Below the pieces are notes generated by a model, which was not told where the DNA came from, did not search any database, and worked only from the letters and a program-made list of their open reading frames with translations. From contig JAAETT010000061.1 in NCBI GenBank assembly GCA_024228115.1, forward strand, positions 1-57,306: a stretch of DNA of 57,306 nucleotides, in the 5' to 3' direction. Both the position numbers and the translations under genes were made by a program. The DNA comes from a bacterium. Lineage in GTDB: Bacteria > Myxococcota_A > UBA9160 > UBA6930. Below are positions 38,905 through 54,003 of the stretch, in pieces; positions within the stretch are counted from its first letter, which is position 1; each line of letters begins with the position of its first letter.

Positions 38905-40068
38905 TCAGGCCCCCTCGGCCCGGCTCTGCTTGCGAAGCGTCTCGGTCACGTGACGCAGGATCGAACGGACCGATGCATCGAAGTCCGAGTTGTCGACGAT
39001 CGGTACGTCATACTGCTCGGCGAGCTCCAGGATGTGGTCCTGGATGCGAAGAATGGCGGAGAGATTGCCGAGATAGCGATGAGGCGGTCGGTCCCCGGCG
39101 CCGCGAGCACGCTTCTCGAAGCGCCCGCTGAAGGCCTTCTCCTCGAGCGTGGCAACGACGAGGAACACGACATGAGCCCGGTCGGCGTACTGGGCTGGAT
39201 CGATCAGGTCCGGCAAGACCGCGACCCCGTCGAGAATCAGGTTCGAGTTCTCTTCGATCGCCCGTTCGATCATCGCACGGGCGCCGACGGAAACCGTCGC
39301 AGCCTGGGCGCGGAAGGCGTCGATCACCGGATCCTCAGCCTGGTCGGAAACCACGACGACTTTGTGCGCGTCGTAGGATGAAGCGTGAATCGCGGGCACG
39401 AGCTCGGGTCCCAACATGATGCGCATGACCTGACGAATCGCGTCCGTCGAAGTCACGCCCGCGATGCCGAGGCGATGGGCAACCGCCTGGGCCAGCGAAC
39501 TCTTGCCAACGCCGGCCGTCCCCGCGAGCAGCAGGATCAGCGGTCGCTCGGAATCCAGGAACTCTCGCCACGCCCGGTAGCGCCCCGCCACGCGCGGCCC
39601 GAGCCGACGCTCGAGGGTCTCGGCCGCCAGGGCCCGAAGCTCGGCACGCTCGACGAAGGGCTCTCCCCGGGCGACGAGGGCGGCTTCGATCTCGCGACCC
39701 ACTTCGTGGGCCTGCTCGGGCTCGATCGCGGATGCCAACAACGAGGCCGAAAGCACCCCCTTGGAGAAGGGCGAAGGCTCGCGCCCCCCGGTTACCTGGA
39801 TCTCGGGCCCGACCGCGAGCGGCTTGTCCTCGAGGGCTTCAGGAAACTGCTCCGCGACCAGGGCCGCCAGCTCATCCCGCCCGATCCGATCGCTGCCGCG
39901 CAGCTTGTCCCGGATCTGGGAGGCCGCCTGAAAGGCGGTATCGAAGGACGCCCCACGCCCCATCAGCGAGTGGATCATGATGCCTCGCATGAAGGGTCGG
40001 CGTCCGTGGCTGTCTTCTACCCAGATCCGGCCACCAGAATCACGGGCTATGGGTTTGGGCTGCGTCAC
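38905..40068 (-). CDS. 2-phosphoglycerate kinase-like protein with ATP-cone repeats
   Basis: A 387-aa protein. Residues 1-160 contain two ATP-cone-like repeats (PFMRGIMIHSLMGRG and PFSKGVLSASLLASA regions). Residues 175-380 are a P-loop kinase with Walker A GTAGVGKSS (183-191), then TSTDAIRQVMRIML and ELVPAIHASSYDAHK, which match archaeal 2-phosphoglycerate kinases (2,3-diphosphoglycerate synthesis, COG2074-like). ATP-cones suggest allosteric control by adenine nucleotides. It is divergent from the ParA-CBM48 operon, with a 209-bp shared upstream region. Its substrate in this organism is unknown. Confidence 0.75.
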   Translation of the reverse strand: MTQPKPIARDSGGRIWVEDSHGRRPFMRGIMIHSLMGRGASFDTAFQAASQIRDKLRGSDRIGRDELAALVAEQFPEALEDKPLAVGPEIQVTGGREPSPFSKGVLSASLLASAIEPEQAHEVGREIEAALVARGEPFVERAELRALAAETLERRLGPRVAGRYRAWREFLDSERPLILLLAGTAGVGKSSLAQAVAHRLGIAGVTSTDAIRQVMRIMLGPELVPAIHASSYDAHKVVVVSDQAEDPVIDAFRAQAATVSVGARAMIERAIEENSNLILDGVAVLPDLIDPAQYADRAHVVFLVVATLEEKAFSGRFEKRARGAGDRPPHRYLGNLSAILRIQDHILELAEQYDVPIVDNSDFDASVRSILRHVTETLRKQSRAEGA

Positions 40069-40277: not shown

Positions 40278-41366
40278 ATGCGCATCCTCGCGATCGTCAA
40301 CCAGAAGGGGGGCTGCGGGAAGACCACGACCGTGGTGAACCTCGCGGGCGCCCTCGCTGCGGAGTCGCGGGTGCTGGTCGTGGACATGGATCCCCAGGCC
40401 CATGCCACCCTGGCCCTGGGCTTCGACCCTGAGGCGTTGGAGGAGAACCTCTACGAGGTGCTCGTCGAGCCCGTGGGATCTTCCGGGGCCGGGCGTCTGG
40501 CGGAGGTGATCATCCCCTGGAGCGACAACCTGCACCTGGCGCCCTCGGGCATCGTTCTCTCGGCCCTCGAACAGAAGCTCTCCGGCGATCGCGCCGAGCG
40601 TCGTACGGAGCGTCTCGAAGCGGCCCTGGCCACGGTTCAGGACGACTACGATTTCGCCCTGATCGATTGTCCGCCCAACGTCGGCGTGCTCACCTTCAAT
40701 GCCCTTCGGGCGGCGCGGGAGGTCGTCGTGCCTCTCGAACCCAGTGATTTCGCCATCCACGGCGTCCAGAAACTCCTGGAGACGATCGCCCTGCTCTCGG
40801 ATCGCATCGGTCATGAGGTCTCGGTGCGAATCCTCCCCACCCTCTTCGACGGGCGCACACGTTATGCCCGGGACACCCTCGCCGAGATCCGCTCCCTCTT
40901 CGAGGATCTCTGCTTTGACACGGTCATCCGTTCCAACGTCAAGCTGCGTGAAGCCGCGCGCCGCGGTCGACCCATCGGGAGCTTCGCCCGAACCGCCAAT
41001 GGCACCCTCGACTACGCTGCCCTCGCTCTGGAGATCTCCCTCGCTGGACCGACGACACCGCTCGGCGACGCATTGACAGAAGACCGATCCGGCCCAGAGA
41101 GAGAGGTGGTCGTGCGCTACTGCGATCCTGGGGCAACCGACGTCCGCATCGCGGGCGACTTCAATGGCTGGGTGCCGGACAAGGACGTGCGTTCCCTGGT
41201 GCGTGCCGAGGGGCCCGAACGAGTGTGGACGAAGATCCTCAACCTGCCGCCGGGCACCTACCACTACCGCTACGTGGTCGACGGCGAATGGCGGGAAGAC
41301 CCGGACAACCCCAATGCCGTGCCGGGCCCCGTCGGCGGGCGCAACTCCGTCCTGGTCGTCGCCTAG
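40278..41366 (+). CDS. ParA-family ATPase fused to a glycogen-binding CBM48/AMPK domain
   Basis: A 362-aa fusion. Residues 1 to about 260 are a Soj/ParA ATPase (deviant Walker A KGGCGKTT at 10-17, switch VVDMDPQAHAT, Walker B ALIDCPPNVG, and VVPLEPSDFAIHG). Residues about 275-362 are an AMPK-beta-type carbohydrate-binding module (VVVRYCDPGATDVRIAGDFN, then PGTYHYRYVVDGEW and DPDNPNAVPG). ParA ATPases position cargo on the nucleoid; the CBM would give this one a glycogen or alpha-glucan cargo. No ParB or parS is seen. It leads a three-gene operon ended by a strong terminator. Domain calls are firm; the function is inference. Confidence 0.9.
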   Translation: MRILAIVNQKGGCGKTTTVVNLAGALAAESRVLVVDMDPQAHATLALGFDPEALEENLYEVLVEPVGSSGAGRLAEVIIPWSDNLHLAPSGIVLSALEQKLSGDRAERRTERLEAALATVQDDYDFALIDCPPNVGVLTFNALRAAREVVVPLEPSDFAIHGVQKLLETIALLSDRIGHEVSVRILPTLFDGRTRYARDTLAEIRSLFEDLCFDTVIRSNVKLREAARRGRPIGSFARTANGTLDYAALALEISLAGPTTPLGDALTEDRSGPEREVVVRYCDPGATDVRIAGDFNGWVPDKDVRSLVRAEGPERVWTKILNLPPGTYHYRYVVDGEWREDPDNPNAVPGPVGGRNSVLVVA

Positions 41367-41370
41367 CCCC

Positions 41371-42138
41371 GTGGCTCGCGAACTGGGAGACGTTCTCCAC
41401 TACTTCCTCGATGATGCGCCGGACACCGTCCCCGACGATGTGCCCGACGCCGCGCACGAACGGGCCAAGGCCCAGGCCTGCCCGATCGTGGCCGCGCCGA
41501 TGCATCCGCGCGATGCCATCCGATCGGCGCTGCTCTGGAATGTTGCGGTCGAGCTGCGCGGATTGGGCCGCGCGCCGACGCTGCTCGCGCCAGCGCTTCA
41601 GCGGGATCACTCCGCTTGGCTCGATCTGGCCAGCGAGAAGCTGGAGCCTTCCTGGGTTTCCCTTCCGAAGGGCGACATCGACCCGTTGCTCGATGCTGCG
41701 TCGGGAGCGGCAAACTCGCTTCCCCAGGAGCGTGGCCCGGTCGTGCTGGTTCACGTCCCCTCCGACACCAGCTGGAATGACGGGCACGCGGAGCTATTCG
41801 AGCGTTGTTGGTTCGTCGCGGGTGCGTCCGATGCCGATCGCCAGGAGTTCCTGGAGCTCTCCGAACGGGTCTTGACCGCAGCGCCTAGATCGCGAATCGG
41901 TGTCACGGTCCGCGGTGCCGAAACCCTCCTGGCAGCGCGACGCGTCTTCGACGCCCTGGCCGAACTCTTCGAGGCCCGCTTCGAGCGCAACCTGACGAGC
42001 TACGGCCTCCTCGTGGACGAATTGGAACTGGCGCGAGAGCTGGCGAAACGCCAATCCGTTTTCGACGGCATCCCCGCAAGCCGCGCGAAACGAGCCCTGC
42101 GCGATGTCGCCGAACTGCTGCGCGACGATCTGCATTGA
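41371..42138 (+). CDS. MinD/FlhG-like protein lacking a P-loop (unknown function)
   Basis: A 255-aa protein starting with GTG 4 bp after the ParA-CBM48 stop. The middle (RDAIRSALLWNVAVELRG, VVLVHVPSDTSW, CWFVAGASDADRQEFLEL) and C-terminus (ARRVFDALAELFEARF, then LVDELELARELAKRQSVFDGIP) follow the pattern of MinD/FlhG/BcsQ ATPases, including the usual C-terminal end. No Walker A lysine motif is present, so it looks like an ATPase-dead paralogue. It could be a partner or scaffold for the ParA-CBM48 protein. This resemblance is by eye and needs structural comparison. Confidence 0.55.
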   Translation: MARELGDVLHYFLDDAPDTVPDDVPDAAHERAKAQACPIVAAPMHPRDAIRSALLWNVAVELRGLGRAPTLLAPALQRDHSAWLDLASEKLEPSWVSLPKGDIDPLLDAASGAANSLPQERGPVVLVHVPSDTSWNDGHAELFERCWFVAGASDADRQEFLELSERVLTAAPRSRIGVTVRGAETLLAARRVFDALAELFEARFERNLTSYGLLVDELELARELAKRQSVFDGIPASRAKRALRDVAELLRDDLH

Positions 42139-42695
42139 GTACACCCCCCCTGAATGGCGCTGGATTTCCCGACGTGAACGCACCGGCCTGGGACCCGCCC
42201 TTCGAAGCGGGCGATCTACGCGCAGCCCTCCTCGAACTGCACGAACCCCTCGAGGTGATCGCGCGCGACGTCCTCGGTTGCGGAGGCCGCGTGGGTTGGG
42301 TGGTGCGGGATCCTGCCGGCCGGGTCGGCCTGGTTCATCGTGCTCAGGCGGGACAGGATCTCCTGGCCTGGGCCGATCTGGTCGCGCAGCTGGCCTGGCT
42401 TGCTCCGCGGCTCGCCGACTGGCACCAGTTGGCACCGGAACGCCGCCTGGATCCGTCACTCTCTCCGCGGGCTTTGTTGATTGCAGATGCCTTCGATGAA
42501 CGCACGAGGCTGGCGGCCGGCAGTTCGTCGTGCCGGGTCGAACTCTGGCGTCTGGTGGCCGCCCCTGGGGGCGTGTCGTTGATCCCGGAGGGGCTCCGCG
42601 CCGCCGCGCCCACCCCGCCGATCGAGGCTTTCCGGCCCGACCATCCCCCCCCGCAGTCGCGTTTTCGGAGCCGCCTGGGCGACGAGGACCTCTAG
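42135..42695 (+). CDS. Hypothetical protein, third gene of the ParA-CBM48 operon
   Basis: A 186-aa protein of unknown family. It starts with TTG overlapping the previous stop by 4 bp. The sequence is soluble, rich in Ala, Leu, Pro and Arg, with a segment GRVGWVVRDPAGRVGLVHRA that looks like two beta strands and a proline-rich C-terminus (PTPPIEAFRPDHPPP). No membrane helix or known motif is seen. The tight overlap implies stoichiometric expression with the MinD-like protein. A perfect intrinsic terminator follows 27 bp after its stop. Confidence 0.55.
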   Translation: MSTPPLNGAGFPDVNAPAWDPPFEAGDLRAALLELHEPLEVIARDVLGCGGRVGWVVRDPAGRVGLVHRAQAGQDLLAWADLVAQLAWLAPRLADWHQLAPERRLDPSLSPRALLIADAFDERTRLAAGSSSCRVELWRLVAAPGGVSLIPEGLRAAAPTPPIEAFRPDHPPPQSRFRSRLGDEDL

Positions 42696-42721: not shown

Positions 42722-42747
42722 GCGGGGCCGAGCCCCGCATTTTTTTT
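42722..42747 (+). terminator. Rho-independent terminator
   Basis: GCGGGGC and GCCCCGC form a perfect 7-bp GC stem around CGA (42722-42738), followed by A and eight T. It ends the ParA-CBM48 operon and separates it from the sigma factor gene. Confidence 0.92.
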
Positions 42748-42850
42748 CGCTCCCGGGTGACATTTCTTGACACCCGACGCGCGCAGGGGGTCACTTCCCA
42801 TGACGGGGGAGGCTGTTCAGGGACAGCCCTGGCAACTGGGAAGGAAGATC

Positions 42851-43447
42851 ATGGCAGCTGCACATGTTGAGCCGGTCACTGAGCCGAAGTTGACGAAGAG
42901 CGCGATCAACCAGCCAACCGACGAGCAACTCGTCGCGCGTGTCGTCGAAGGCGACCGGGCTCCGTTCGAGCTCTTATACGCCCGCTATTTCACCCGGGTG
43001 TATCGCTTCGTGGATCGCAGGGTGAGCAACCGGGCAGATACCGAGGAGATCGTCCAGGAGGTGTTCTTCAACCTCTTCTCTTCGCTGCACTCATTCCGTG
43101 GCGAGGCGCCGTTCGCCGCGTGGGTGTTCGGCCTGACGCGCCGAACGATTGCCTCGCGTTTCAAGCGCAAGCGACATGAGATGGTTTCGCTTCCCGAGGA
43201 CGAGCATTTTCTCGGGGTCGCAGGCCAGAGCGGATCGAGCCCCCACGCGGACTACGAATGCGCAGAGCGCCTCGATCAGCTCTCCGCGACCGCCCGACAA
43301 GATCTGTCGGACGAGCAGTGGCAGCTCTTCCGCATGCACCATCTCGAGGATCGTTCGATCCAGGAGATCGCTGGCATCGTGGCGAAGACCGAAGACGCGG
43401 TGAAATCGCATCTGTATCGGGCACGGCGGACGCTACTGGCGAGGTAG
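42851..43447 (+). CDS. ECF-type RNA polymerase sigma factor
   Basis: A 198-aa sigma-70 family protein. Region 2 (FELLYARYFTRVYRFVDRRV, then DTEEIVQEVFFNLF) and region 4 (LSDEQWQLFRMHHL, SIQEIAGIVAKTEDAVKSHL) are clear; regions 1 and 3 are absent, as in ECF sigmas. No anti-sigma gene adjoins it. Start: ATG 42851 has AAGGAAG upstream; ATG 42800 is in frame and lies just after a TTGACA-containing stretch (42767-42772), so a longer protein is possible. Confidence 0.9.
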   Translation: MAAAHVEPVTEPKLTKSAINQPTDEQLVARVVEGDRAPFELLYARYFTRVYRFVDRRVSNRADTEEIVQEVFFNLFSSLHSFRGEAPFAAWVFGLTRRTIASRFKRKRHEMVSLPEDEHFLGVAGQSGSSPHADYECAERLDQLSATARQDLSDEQWQLFRMHHLEDRSIQEIAGIVAKTEDAVKSHLYRARRTLLAR

Positions 43448-43487
43448 GCGGCGCCTCACCCACAGAAGGCTCGGCTAGACTGCTCCC

Positions 43488-44246
43488 ATGAGTGAAGCGG
43501 AAGAGCCCCTGTGTTCCTGGACCGAGCCCTGCGAGGGCGGGCTCCGCTTCGAGGTGACCCACCAGGGCGATTGGGTGCCCGGTCGACTCTTCCTGCCGAG
43601 CGGCTCGGGTCCGTTCCCGCTCGTCCTCGTCCAACATGGCGCGGGGAGCAGCAAGGACGACCCGGTCATGGATACGGTGACGGCGCCGTGGGTGCGCGGG
43701 GGTGCGGCCGTGGCGCGCATCGATTTCCCGCTTCACGGCGAGCGGAACGACCCGAAGCTCAGCGCCCGCGTGCTGGGCGCCCTGGCCGGGGAAGGAGAAC
43801 GAACCGCGCTCGAAGAAGACCTCTGGGGGGACCTCACGCGCCAGGCGACAGGCGACCTCCGCCGCAGCCTCGACGCACTTCTGCCCCTTCCCGAGATCGA
43901 CGCCAATCGCGTGGCCTACGCCGGTTTCAGCCTTGGCGCCATCCTCGGCACACCCTTCTGTGCGAACGACAAGCGAATCGGCGCCGCAGCTCTGGCCCTC
44001 GCGGGCGGAGGGCTCGCCCCGACGCCGCACGACCCTCTCCAATCCATCGGTGACATCGCCCCGAGGCCCGTTCTCTTCGTCAATGCACTCCGCGACGAAC
44101 GCATCCCAAAGGATCAGGCGGAAGCGCTCCACGCGGCGGCGGGCGCCCCCAAGCAGGTCGAGTGGTTCGATTGCAGCCACAGCGAACTCCCCGGCGCTGC
44201 GCTGAAACGAATGTGGGTCTTCCTGCGCGCGGCCCTGGAGCTGTAG
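43488..44246 (+). CDS. Alpha/beta hydrolase (dienelactone hydrolase-like)
   Basis: A 252-aa alpha/beta hydrolase. The nucleophile elbow is GFSLG (near residue 144), followed by the acid in LRDERIPKDQ and the histidine in CSHSELPG. The oxyanion region is VQHGAGSS. No signal peptide, so cytoplasmic. A -10-like TAGACT at 43476-43481 lies six bases before the ATG, so its message may be leaderless. It is convergent with the EI24 gene across a perfect palindrome. The substrate is unknown. Confidence 0.85.
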   Translation: MSEAEEPLCSWTEPCEGGLRFEVTHQGDWVPGRLFLPSGSGPFPLVLVQHGAGSSKDDPVMDTVTAPWVRGGAAVARIDFPLHGERNDPKLSARVLGALAGEGERTALEEDLWGDLTRQATGDLRRSLDALLPLPEIDANRVAYAGFSLGAILGTPFCANDKRIGAAALALAGGGLAPTPHDPLQSIGDIAPRPVLFVNALRDERIPKDQAEALHAAAGAPKQVEWFDCSHSELPGAALKRMWVFLRAALEL

Positions 44247-50720: not shown

Positions 50721-51707
50721 TTGGCTCAATCGCTTTCGTCCGCCAGCCCGCTGAGACCCCTGATCAGCCGCCGCCTGATCGTCGTCACGGGTAAGGGTGG
50801 GACGGGAAAGACCACGGTATCCGCGGCTTTGGCTCTAGGCGCGGCCGCACGAGGCCTCCGGGTCTGCCTGGTGGAGACCGGGCGGGATGAGGAGATTCCG
50901 CGCTTGCTCGGTGAGGCTGAGCCTCCGGTGGGCCACGCCGGAAGGCAGCTTCGTTGCGGCCCCAGTGTGATGAAGATGGAGCCCTATGCGGCCTTGGCCG
51001 AGTACCTCCGTCTTCAGCTCCGCATACCGGGGCTGGTCACGCGCCTCCTCGATCAGCCGGCCTTCCATGCTCTGCTCGACGCAGCACCCGGTTGGCGAGA
51101 GCTCATCACCCTCGGCAAGGTGTGGCACCTGCTCCAGCCGCCCGCCGGTTCCGAAGAACACATCGACCTTCTCATCGTAGATGCTCCAGCCACGGGCCAC
51201 GGCCTCACGTTCCTGGATGTTCCGAGTGTCGTGGTCTCGGCCGTCCGGGCAGGGCCGCTCCAGCGACACGCGGGCTGGGTCGAGGACATGGTCCGGGATC
51301 CCGAACACACGCTCCTGCTACCCGTCACCCTTCCCGAAGAGCTTCCCGTCCGCGAAACCCTGGAGTTGGTGTCGCGCGCCCGAGACGAGGTAGGGATCGC
51401 CATCGATCGTGTCGTGATCAACGCCACCGAGGCCGAGCCGGTTCCGCCGGAACTCCTGGACCTGCCGGAACGCCTGGCCTCCCTCCCCTCATCGCCCAAC
51501 GGTCTGCCCTCTCCGGCCACCCTCGCCCACTGCGTCGGGCATCGGATCGAGCGAGCCTCGCTTCATCACGAAGCGATCGACGAACTGCGCAAAGGCACGG
51601 ACCTGCCCTTCGTCCGGCTCCCCAACCTGGATGTGGACGGTGGTGGCCAGAGCGTGCTCGAGACGCTCGCCGCCGCACTCGTCGAACCCGCCGAGCCCCT
51701 GCCGTGA
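50721..51707 (+). CDS. ArsA/GET3-family ATPase 1
   Basis: A 328-aa SIMIBI ATPase with the deviant Walker A TGKGGTGKTT and switch regions (LVETGRDEE, LLIVDAPATGHGL). Bacterial ArsA-like proteins without ArsB/D are thought to handle tail-anchored or other membrane proteins, or metalloid stress. Nothing arsenic-related is nearby. The TTG at 50721 follows GAGG and is the best start. The stop overlaps the second ArsA gene, so the two may form a heterodimer like a split ArsA. Confidence 0.82.
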   Translation: MAQSLSSASPLRPLISRRLIVVTGKGGTGKTTVSAALALGAAARGLRVCLVETGRDEEIPRLLGEAEPPVGHAGRQLRCGPSVMKMEPYAALAEYLRLQLRIPGLVTRLLDQPAFHALLDAAPGWRELITLGKVWHLLQPPAGSEEHIDLLIVDAPATGHGLTFLDVPSVVVSAVRAGPLQRHAGWVEDMVRDPEHTLLLPVTLPEELPVRETLELVSRARDEVGIAIDRVVINATEAEPVPPELLDLPERLASLPSSPNGLPSPATLAHCVGHRIERASLHHEAIDELRKGTDLPFVRLPNLDVDGGGQSVLETLAAALVEPAEPLP

Positions 51708-53430: not shown

Positions 53431-54003
53431 GTGACCGAACCCCGCCGAGATGCTGAGCAGCCCATGGCCGTCCTGATCAAGCGGTACGCCAATCGCAAGC
53501 TCTACAATACCGAGACGAGCCGCTACATCACGTTGAAGGGCATCGCCGAACTCCTGGAGAACAACCAGGAAGTGAAGGTGATCGACAACGAGACCCGCGA
53601 AGACATCACCTCGGTGACGCTCTCCCAGATCCTGGTGGATACGGAACGCGGCGGGCGCGCGATGCCGGGCAACCTCCTCCAGGAGCTGCTCCAAAAGGGC
53701 GGCGATGCTCTCTACGATGCGCTTCGCCGCAGCGCCGACGACGCCCGCGAGAACGTCGAGGAACTCCAGCGAGGCATGCGGCGGATGCTCGGCCAGCAGG
53801 GCGAGGGCGAAACCGACGCCAACGGCGAACGTCGGGATTGGATCGCCTTCTCGCCGCCGGATCTCGAGGCGATCGTGCAACGCACGCTCGAGCGGGTCGT
53901 CCGCATCCTCGATCTACCCACCCGTGCCGATTTCGATGCGATGAACGCCCGCCTCGACAAGCTCGTCGAAGCCCTCGAGAAGCGGGATTCGGATGAAACC
54001 TAG
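53431..54003 (+). CDS. phaR: Polyhydroxyalkanoate synthesis regulator PhaR
   Basis: A 190-aa protein with the PHB/PHA regulator DNA-binding domain (VLIKRYANRKLYNTETSRYI, then ELLENNQEVKVIDN and DITSVTLSQILV). PhaR binds PHA granules and phasin promoters. The C-terminal part is a charged helical region. GTG 53431 is taken as start; ATG 53464 would begin directly at the domain. No PHA synthase or phasin gene is in the window. Confidence 0.88.
   Translation: MTEPRRDAEQPMAVLIKRYANRKLYNTETSRYITLKGIAELLENNQEVKVIDNETREDITSVTLSQILVDTERGGRAMPGNLLQELLQKGGDALYDALRRSADDARENVEELQRGMRRMLGQQGEGETDANGERRDWIAFSPPDLEAIVQRTLERVVRILDLPTRADFDAMNARLDKLVEALEKRDSDET

Follow-up and report, generated by a model that had tools for sequence, protein, structure and literature searches.

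The 57,306-nucleotide stretch of bacterial DNA analysed here (contig JAAETT010000061.1, positions 1 to 57,306), referred to below as the window, carries three closely packed genes on its forward strand, whose features are collected in Table 1. The first gene encodes a Soj/ParA ATPase continued in the same reading frame by a carbohydrate-binding module (CBM) of the CBM48/AMPK-beta type, the second a MinD-like protein without a P-loop, and the third a protein with a nuclease-like fold. Gene 2 follows the fusion after a gap of 4 bp and overlaps gene 3 by 4 bp, and the operon ends in a perfect terminator. An earlier note, made from the letters of the window, had described the fusion, its two partners, their tight spacing and the terminator; reading frame, Pfam and PDB matches, predicted folds and coordinates confirmed this observation in every detail.

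Table 1. Features of the ParA-CBM48 operon and its divergent neighbour (positions in the window).
Feature	Position	Strand	Remarks
ParA-CBM48 fusion gene	40278..41366	+	ATG start at 40278, stop at 41364-41366, 362 aa
Soj/ParA ATPase domain, residues 1-255	40278..41042	+	deviant Walker A KGGCGKTT at 40305-40328
Fast-evolving linker, residues 256-275	41043..41102	+	from dN/dS comparison
CBM48/AMPK-beta domain, residues 276-362	41103..41363	+	W298 (41169-41171), R331 (41268-41270), W338 (41289-41291), N356 (41343-41345)
Gene 2, putative adaptor, 255 aa	41371..42138	+	GTG start; N-terminal motif, then FlhG/MinD-like fold without P-loop
N-terminal ParB/McdB-like motif of gene 2, MARELGDVLHYFLDD	41371..41415	+	near-fixed across loci
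Gene 3, 186 aa	42135..42695	+	TTG start; PD-(D/E)XK (NucS-like) fold without catalytic residues
C-terminal linear motif of gene 3, FRSRLGDEDL	42663..42692	+	conserved among homologues
Intrinsic terminator	42722..42747	+	perfect 7-bp stem GCGGGGC / GCCCCGC, 3-nt loop, T8
2-phosphoglycerate-kinase-like divergent neighbour	38905..40068	-	syntenic within the order; outside the cross-phylum module

The ATPase domain matched Pfam AAA_31 at residues 1-180 (E 8.6e-48), and its closest PDB structures were the ParA/Soj proteins 8ray, 6iub and 1wcv. Among 78 homologues, K10 and K15 of the deviant Walker A motif with its signature lysine, the active-site aspartates D36, D38 and D130, and R193 were all invariant; the Walker A motif read KGGCGKT in 74 of them and KGGCAKT in 4. 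We take R193 to be the equivalent of the DNA-binding arginine of Soj, and the domain may accordingly be a DNA-binding one. In addition, Y59 was a tyrosine in 57 of 61 members from the window's taxonomic order (hereafter the order) and in 15 of 17 distant homologues. This residue aligns with Y81 of Myxococcus xanthus ParA, which receives an arginine of ParB (PMC12462528). Given the invariant active site and the kept Y59, the ATPase looks functional and built to take a ParB-like arginine.

The C-terminal domain matched Pfam AMPK1_CBM (PF16561) at residues 278-348 with 48.9 bits (cut-off 26.8) and scored just under the cut-off of PF02922; its top PDB match was the CBM of AMPK beta-2 (E 7.5e-8). 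The glucan-contact residues of AMPK beta-1, presumably W100, K126, W133 and N150, correspond in the alignment to W298, R331, W338 and N356, and these positions (R or K at 331) were nearly invariant among homologues. The glucan-binding aromatics, which the earlier note had named as decisive for this domain, are kept: W298 was found in 77 of 77 homologues with the position aligned, and W338 in 77 of 78. Among close relatives, the ratio of nonsynonymous to synonymous substitution rates (dN/dS) was 0.03-0.10 in the CBM and 0.05-0.16 in the ParA domain, compared with 0.1-0.4 in most of genes 2 and 3 and with a linker nearly free of constraint. Because these CBM ratios are low and the contact residues near-invariant, the sugar site is actively maintained under strong purifying selection. 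Loss of the site was ruled out by the contact residues, and the dN/dS range ruled out that selection on the CBM has relaxed in genomes without glycogen genes. When compared with the AMPK beta glycogen-binding domain (PF16561; PDB 1z0m, 4y0g), the domain aligned over its full length, with the equivalents of W100, W133 and N150 kept and K126 replaced by arginine, but it sits on a bacterial ParA rather than on a kinase subunit, and its alpha-glucan binding is a prediction.

Gene 2 has homologues next to the fusion throughout the order, and also in Desulfobacterota, Omnitrophota and Planctomycetes; the iterative profiles for the partner genes were run on neighbouring open reading frames (ORFs) only, and their E-values refer to this small set. 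We found that the first 15 residues of gene 2 are near-fixed (MARELGDVLHYFLDD in the window), that more than 45 loci share the start M(A/P)R(D/E/K)L(x)DVLHYF, and that dN/dS of this motif is near 0. In distant homologues the motif appears as LGRGLEEVSSHFLSP, LGKGLEDISYLFLSP or RGLEEISHLFLSS, and the first two forms resemble LGRGLDALIPRE of the organism's own chromosomal ParB, which starts MAARRNALGRGLDALIPRE. It has been reported that N-terminal peptides of ParB and McdB bind and activate their ATPases (PMC12462528, PMC12204374), and that the N-terminal 20 residues of McdB are necessary and sufficient to bind McdA (PMC12204374). The rest of gene 2 has a predicted FlhG/FleN/MinD-like fold (Foldseek E 1e-8), and its homologues showed weak matches to Pfam CbiA and NCBIfam MinD. 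Although the predicted fold is shared with FlhG/FleN, no Walker A motif or P-loop was found in gene 2 or in its aligned homologues. Since a ParB/McdB-like N-terminus is thus combined with a MinD-like fold lacking a P-loop, we read gene 2 as a putative adaptor. It looks like an activating peptide on a dead MinD-like body, and the peptide may activate the ParA domain; this adaptor-like appearance is an addition to what had been described before.

The model of gene 3 has a PD-(D/E)XK core (predicted local distance difference test score, 83), with NucS/EndoMS as the best structures (Z 12.0 and 11.7; Foldseek probability 1.00) and SfsA also among the closest, and a distant homologue matched NucS in NCBIfam (5e-5). 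The fold would therefore be shared with NucS/EndoMS, but the E-x-K catalytic motif was absent in all 57 members. The first catalytic aspartate, a glycine in the window, was kept in 28 of 31 aligned members. Judged from the model, gene 3 looks like a catalytically dead NucS-like nuclease fold. Fifty of the 57 members end in an FR(T/S)xL or L(S/T)xEE tail. Genes 2 and 3 are tied together by natural fusions: the gene-2 motif is joined straight onto the gene-3 domain in L070, L011 and L034, and in L076/L077 a single protein comprises the motif, the MinD-like body and the gene-3 domain. ParB identity was ruled out for both genes, which showed no ParB match and have MinD-like and NucS-like folds. 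At a further locus (L084:1277-3211), ParA-CBM, gene-2 motif and gene-3 domain lie in a single 644-aa frame with an abnormal CBM end, and this frame may reflect either a frameshift or a genuine fusion of the three parts.

A scan of GTDB genomes, which detects only sequences matching short patterns, returned 80 loci from other genomes; gene calls in these loci were mechanical, and kinship was taken as assigned automatically. Sixty-three loci were close relatives (58-94% identity) from metagenome-assembled genomes (MAGs) of Myxococcota/Deltaproteobacteria, and 17 were full-length at 37-45% identity, from Omnitrophota, Desulfobacterota, Planctomycetes, Acidobacteria and one gammaproteobacterial MAG. 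Of 61 order genomes, 50 carried the full fusion, which was also detected in 133 of 237 sampled Omnitrophota genomes, in 9 of 198 genomes of the Desulfobacterota sample and in 8 of 297 sampled Acidobacteriota genomes. Thus, the homologue search that the earlier note had proposed showed a fusion that is not unique to this contig, and a three-gene order that is kept across the order and recurs in other phyla. With so many independent genomes carrying the fusion, an assembly artefact was ruled out. No fusion was found on plasmids, where the best matches spanned the ParA part only at ~41% identity, which also ruled out a plasmid-borne partition system. Most genomes of the order without the fusion were small (2.0-2.8 Mb; G006, G007, G009, G028 and G039), suggesting that the module may be lost upon genome reduction. 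Besides, three Desulfobacterota loci (L128, L129 and L131) contain a sister ParA subfamily that lacks the CBM but carries a conserved extension at the C-terminus (DILQRTExY); its member in L131 is the neighbour of a Wzz/chain-length-type gene.

A second type of partner was observed in many Omnitrophota, in which a membrane protein of ~190 aa is encoded directly upstream of the fusion (L068, L206, L208, L211 and similar loci). Its features are a single membrane helix, a short motif at the N-terminus (DIYEHLAKIYLD, ADILARTYFSGG) and a beta-rich domain that is probably periplasmic, and the family had no Pfam match. In a tree of the fusion, unrooted as no outgroup sequence was included, most membrane-partner systems were placed apart from the soluble-partner systems, which span Omnitrophota, Planctomycetes, Acidobacteriota, Desulfobacterota and the order of the window. 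This order was monophyletic (support 0.99).

Using known alpha-glucan enzymes as queries, we examined 65 loci from outside the order and found an alpha-glucan gene within the fetched flanks (~10 kb) of 26; the distance was no more than 1.1 kb in 19 of these, and the strand was nearly always the same. Because the linkage was seen with both partner types, in Omnitrophota and Desulfobacterota loci, it looks ancestral; loci within a clade share inherited gene order, so the 26 are not independent and their count is not a sample size. For example, GH57 one gene upstream of the membrane partner is a conserved Omnitrophota arrangement, a GH57 branching enzyme lies downstream of the fusion in L071, L204, L205 and L207, and a phosphorylase (L212, L234) or GlgB (L150) was found near it in other loci. 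L152 has a full glycogen operon directly upstream, consisting of a debranching enzyme (GDE), GT4, GH57 and a fused GT3 synthase-phosphorylase. The last is a single ORF of 1441 aa (L152:9064-13389) comprising a GT3 glycogen synthase and an alpha-glucan phosphorylase. Pfam and NCBIfam confirmed a sample of the alpha-glucan neighbours. Within the order, none of 63 loci had an alpha-glucan gene nearby. A synthase (GlgA or GT3) was encoded in 16 of the 50 order genomes with the fusion and in 3 of the 11 without it and did not track the fusion, and all five searched families were absent in 15 of the 50, eight of these 15 being at least 90% complete. Alpha-glucan may be synthesized in the order by other, unrecognised routes. 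A gene for a PhaR-type polyhydroxyalkanoate regulator, recognized by eye, lies at 53431-54003 of the window and would suggest polyhydroxyalkanoate rather than glycogen as the storage compound of this lineage.

ParA-type ATPases place chromosomes, plasmids, carboxysomes, flagella and chemoreceptors in bacteria. We favour, at somewhat less than even confidence, the interpretation that the three genes form a dedicated ParA-plus-adaptor positioning (partition) module whose ancestral cargo was an alpha-glucan and which has another ligand, or a sensor role, in the window's lineage. In this scheme, for which we infer DNA binding, ATPase activation, cargo and dynamics from the directly established domains, conservation, selection, gene context and partner folds, ATP-bound ParA dimers would sit on the nucleoid and bind saccharide-bearing cargo through their C-terminal CBM48 domains. 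The N-terminal peptide of gene 2 would contact the ParA dimer, as in ParB and McdB, and trigger ATP hydrolysis and ParA release, such that the cargo is spaced and inherited; the dead MinD-like body of gene 2 and gene 3, with its dead NucS-like fold and C-terminal motif, would provide the scaffold and cargo linker. From gene context in Omnitrophota and Desulfobacterota, an alpha-glucan (glycogen) body is the most probable ancestral cargo. As the window's lineage has kept the module and an intact CBM while the glycogen enzymes are mostly gone, the present ligand is probably another saccharide polymer or a small glucan, or else the CBM serves as a sensor.

By analogy, the module would work like McdAB or ParABS and be a member of neither, having no ParB CTPase and different partner proteins. 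McdA/McdB (PMC12204374, PMC13052382) also combines a ParA-type ATPase with a separate partner, whose first ~20 residues, including an important basic one, make contact with the ATPase, and it distributes a body of carbon metabolism, the carboxysome, as the module may do with its saccharide cargo. However, McdA has no CBM, and McdB is mostly disordered and binds the carboxysome, whereas the partner here is a dead MinD-like fold accompanied by a third, NucS-like gene. No carboxysome link was seen, although no search was aimed at carboxysome genes. ParABS (Soj/Spo0J, ParA/ParB; PMC12462528) shares the ParA domain, the tyrosine of the ParB-arginine pocket and the likeness of the gene-2 motif to ParB LGRGLxxL; it differs in that the operon encodes no ParB CTPase/helix-turn-helix protein and in the CBM48 at the ParA C-terminus. 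PhaM/PhaF (PMC3556143, PMC13052382) similarly couple a storage inclusion to the nucleoid, but have no ParA homology.

Several observations weigh against the positioning interpretation. The likeness of the gene-2 motif to ParB is short, many Omnitrophota have the different, membrane-anchored partner upstream of the fusion instead, and the known systems bind their cargo through the adaptor and not through ParA. In Omnitrophota, the linkage partly reflects a single gene order passed on by descent. GlgA was found in 214 of 237 Omnitrophota genomes and is so nearly universal there that its co-occurrence with the fusion is uninformative; it was dropped as evidence. Finally, the genome of the window (G000, 97% complete) contained neither a GlgA scoring over the cut-off nor a GT3 synthase, a GT35 phosphorylase or a GH57, and 34 of the 50 order genomes with the fusion encoded neither type of synthase. 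A more specific proposal is that a ParA system actively spaces and partitions glycogen bodies in Omnitrophota, some Desulfobacterota and relatives, in which the ATPase holds the polymer via CBM48 and the switch is a ParB/McdB-like peptide of the partner, a pseudo-MinD or membrane-anchored protein, and that the Myxococcota-type order of the window re-uses this machine for a different saccharide cargo without glycogen synthesis; taken as a whole, we consider this doubtful.

Unlikely, but deserving attention, is a carbon-status sensor, in which a saccharide or protein bound to CBM48 would set the ATPase or dimer state of ParA and, via genes 2 and 3, control transcription, division or the way the chromosome is handled. 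Small malto-oligosaccharides are among the ligands of CBM48-type domains, which also have a regulatory function, as in AMPK beta, and the CBM stays fixed even where a lineage has no glycogen enzymes. Since the partner binds the cargo in known systems, a CBM on ParA itself fits a sensor at least equally well, and an extracytoplasmic function (ECF) sigma factor gene is located just downstream throughout the order. However, this gene sits past the operon terminator and does not accompany the module in genomes from outside the order, and the retention of the whole ParA active site with R193, together with the activating-type peptide of the partner, fits positioning.

Another explanation, which we judge quite unlikely, is control of the synthesis or export of envelope or extracellular polysaccharide in the manner of BcsQ, with CBM48 sensing the nascent chain. 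BcsQ, which acts in cellulose synthesis, is likewise a ParA-family ATPase tied to a polysaccharide, many Omnitrophota partners are membrane proteins whose motif is cytoplasmic and whose beta-rich domain is probably periplasmic, and the Wzz-type neighbour of the CBM-less ATPase in L131 points in the same direction. But BcsQ has no fused CBM, the ATPase scored far below the cut-off of the BcsQ equivalog model TIGR03371 (53.5 versus 157.85 bits), no recurrent cellulose or extracellular polysaccharide genes were seen at the fusion loci of the order, and the neighbours in other phyla are cytoplasmic alpha-glucan enzymes.

The earlier note had suggested placement of glycogen granules. This is plausible for the relatives, given the 26 linked loci, but very unlikely in the window's own organism. 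An intact CBM48 site, the glycogen gene linkage of distant relatives and the 16 fusion-bearing order genomes with a synthase would be in its favour; on the other side are the missing enzymes of G000, whose sole GH13 (L244, 2509-4092) is alpha-glucosidase-like by eye, the 15 fusion-bearing relatives without any of the five families and the lack of any linked locus in the order. Least probable is a system for partitioning DNA or organising the nucleoid, with DNA bound by the NucS-like fold of gene 3 and protein-protein contacts made by the CBM, since the Soj-like ParA, the ParB-like motif and the nuclease fold that agree with it stand against a genome that already has its own Soj/ParB pair, an operon without a ParB-type DNA-binding or CTPase protein, and the kept glucan-contact residues.

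In the literature searched, no relevant paper was found on ParA with glycogen, CBM48 or Omnitrophota, no description of the module, and no machinery that places or inherits glycogen, which a 2025 review of organelle positioning does not mention. As far as this literature shows, the ParA-CBM family with its two dedicated partner genes is undescribed, in agreement with the earlier note, which knew of no such system. A glucan-binding ParA with its own adaptor, widespread in Omnitrophota and located beside glycogen genes in several lineages, makes active partition of carbon storage directly testable. That strong purifying selection keeps the sugar site intact in an order mostly without glycogen enzymes is a puzzle that concerns other ligands of CBM48, and two previously unassigned protein families (genes 2 and 3) gain a likely role as ParA partners.

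The genes surrounding the operon were conserved over a narrower range. The ECF sigma factor and alpha/beta hydrolase genes (42767-44246) adjoin the ParA operon across the order and not in other phyla; as these two genes and the 2-phosphoglycerate kinase gene are syntenic only within the order, they were not counted as parts of the module. Between the terminator and the sigma gene lies an imperfect inverted repeat (42754-42776, CGGGTGACAtttctTGACACCCG), and GTSACNTTYYTTGACAC precedes the sigma gene at many of the order's loci; this element is likely a promoter or operator. A second protein with a deviant Walker A motif (KGGTGKTT), ArsA/Get3-like by eye, is encoded by an ORF at 50721-51707 of the window.

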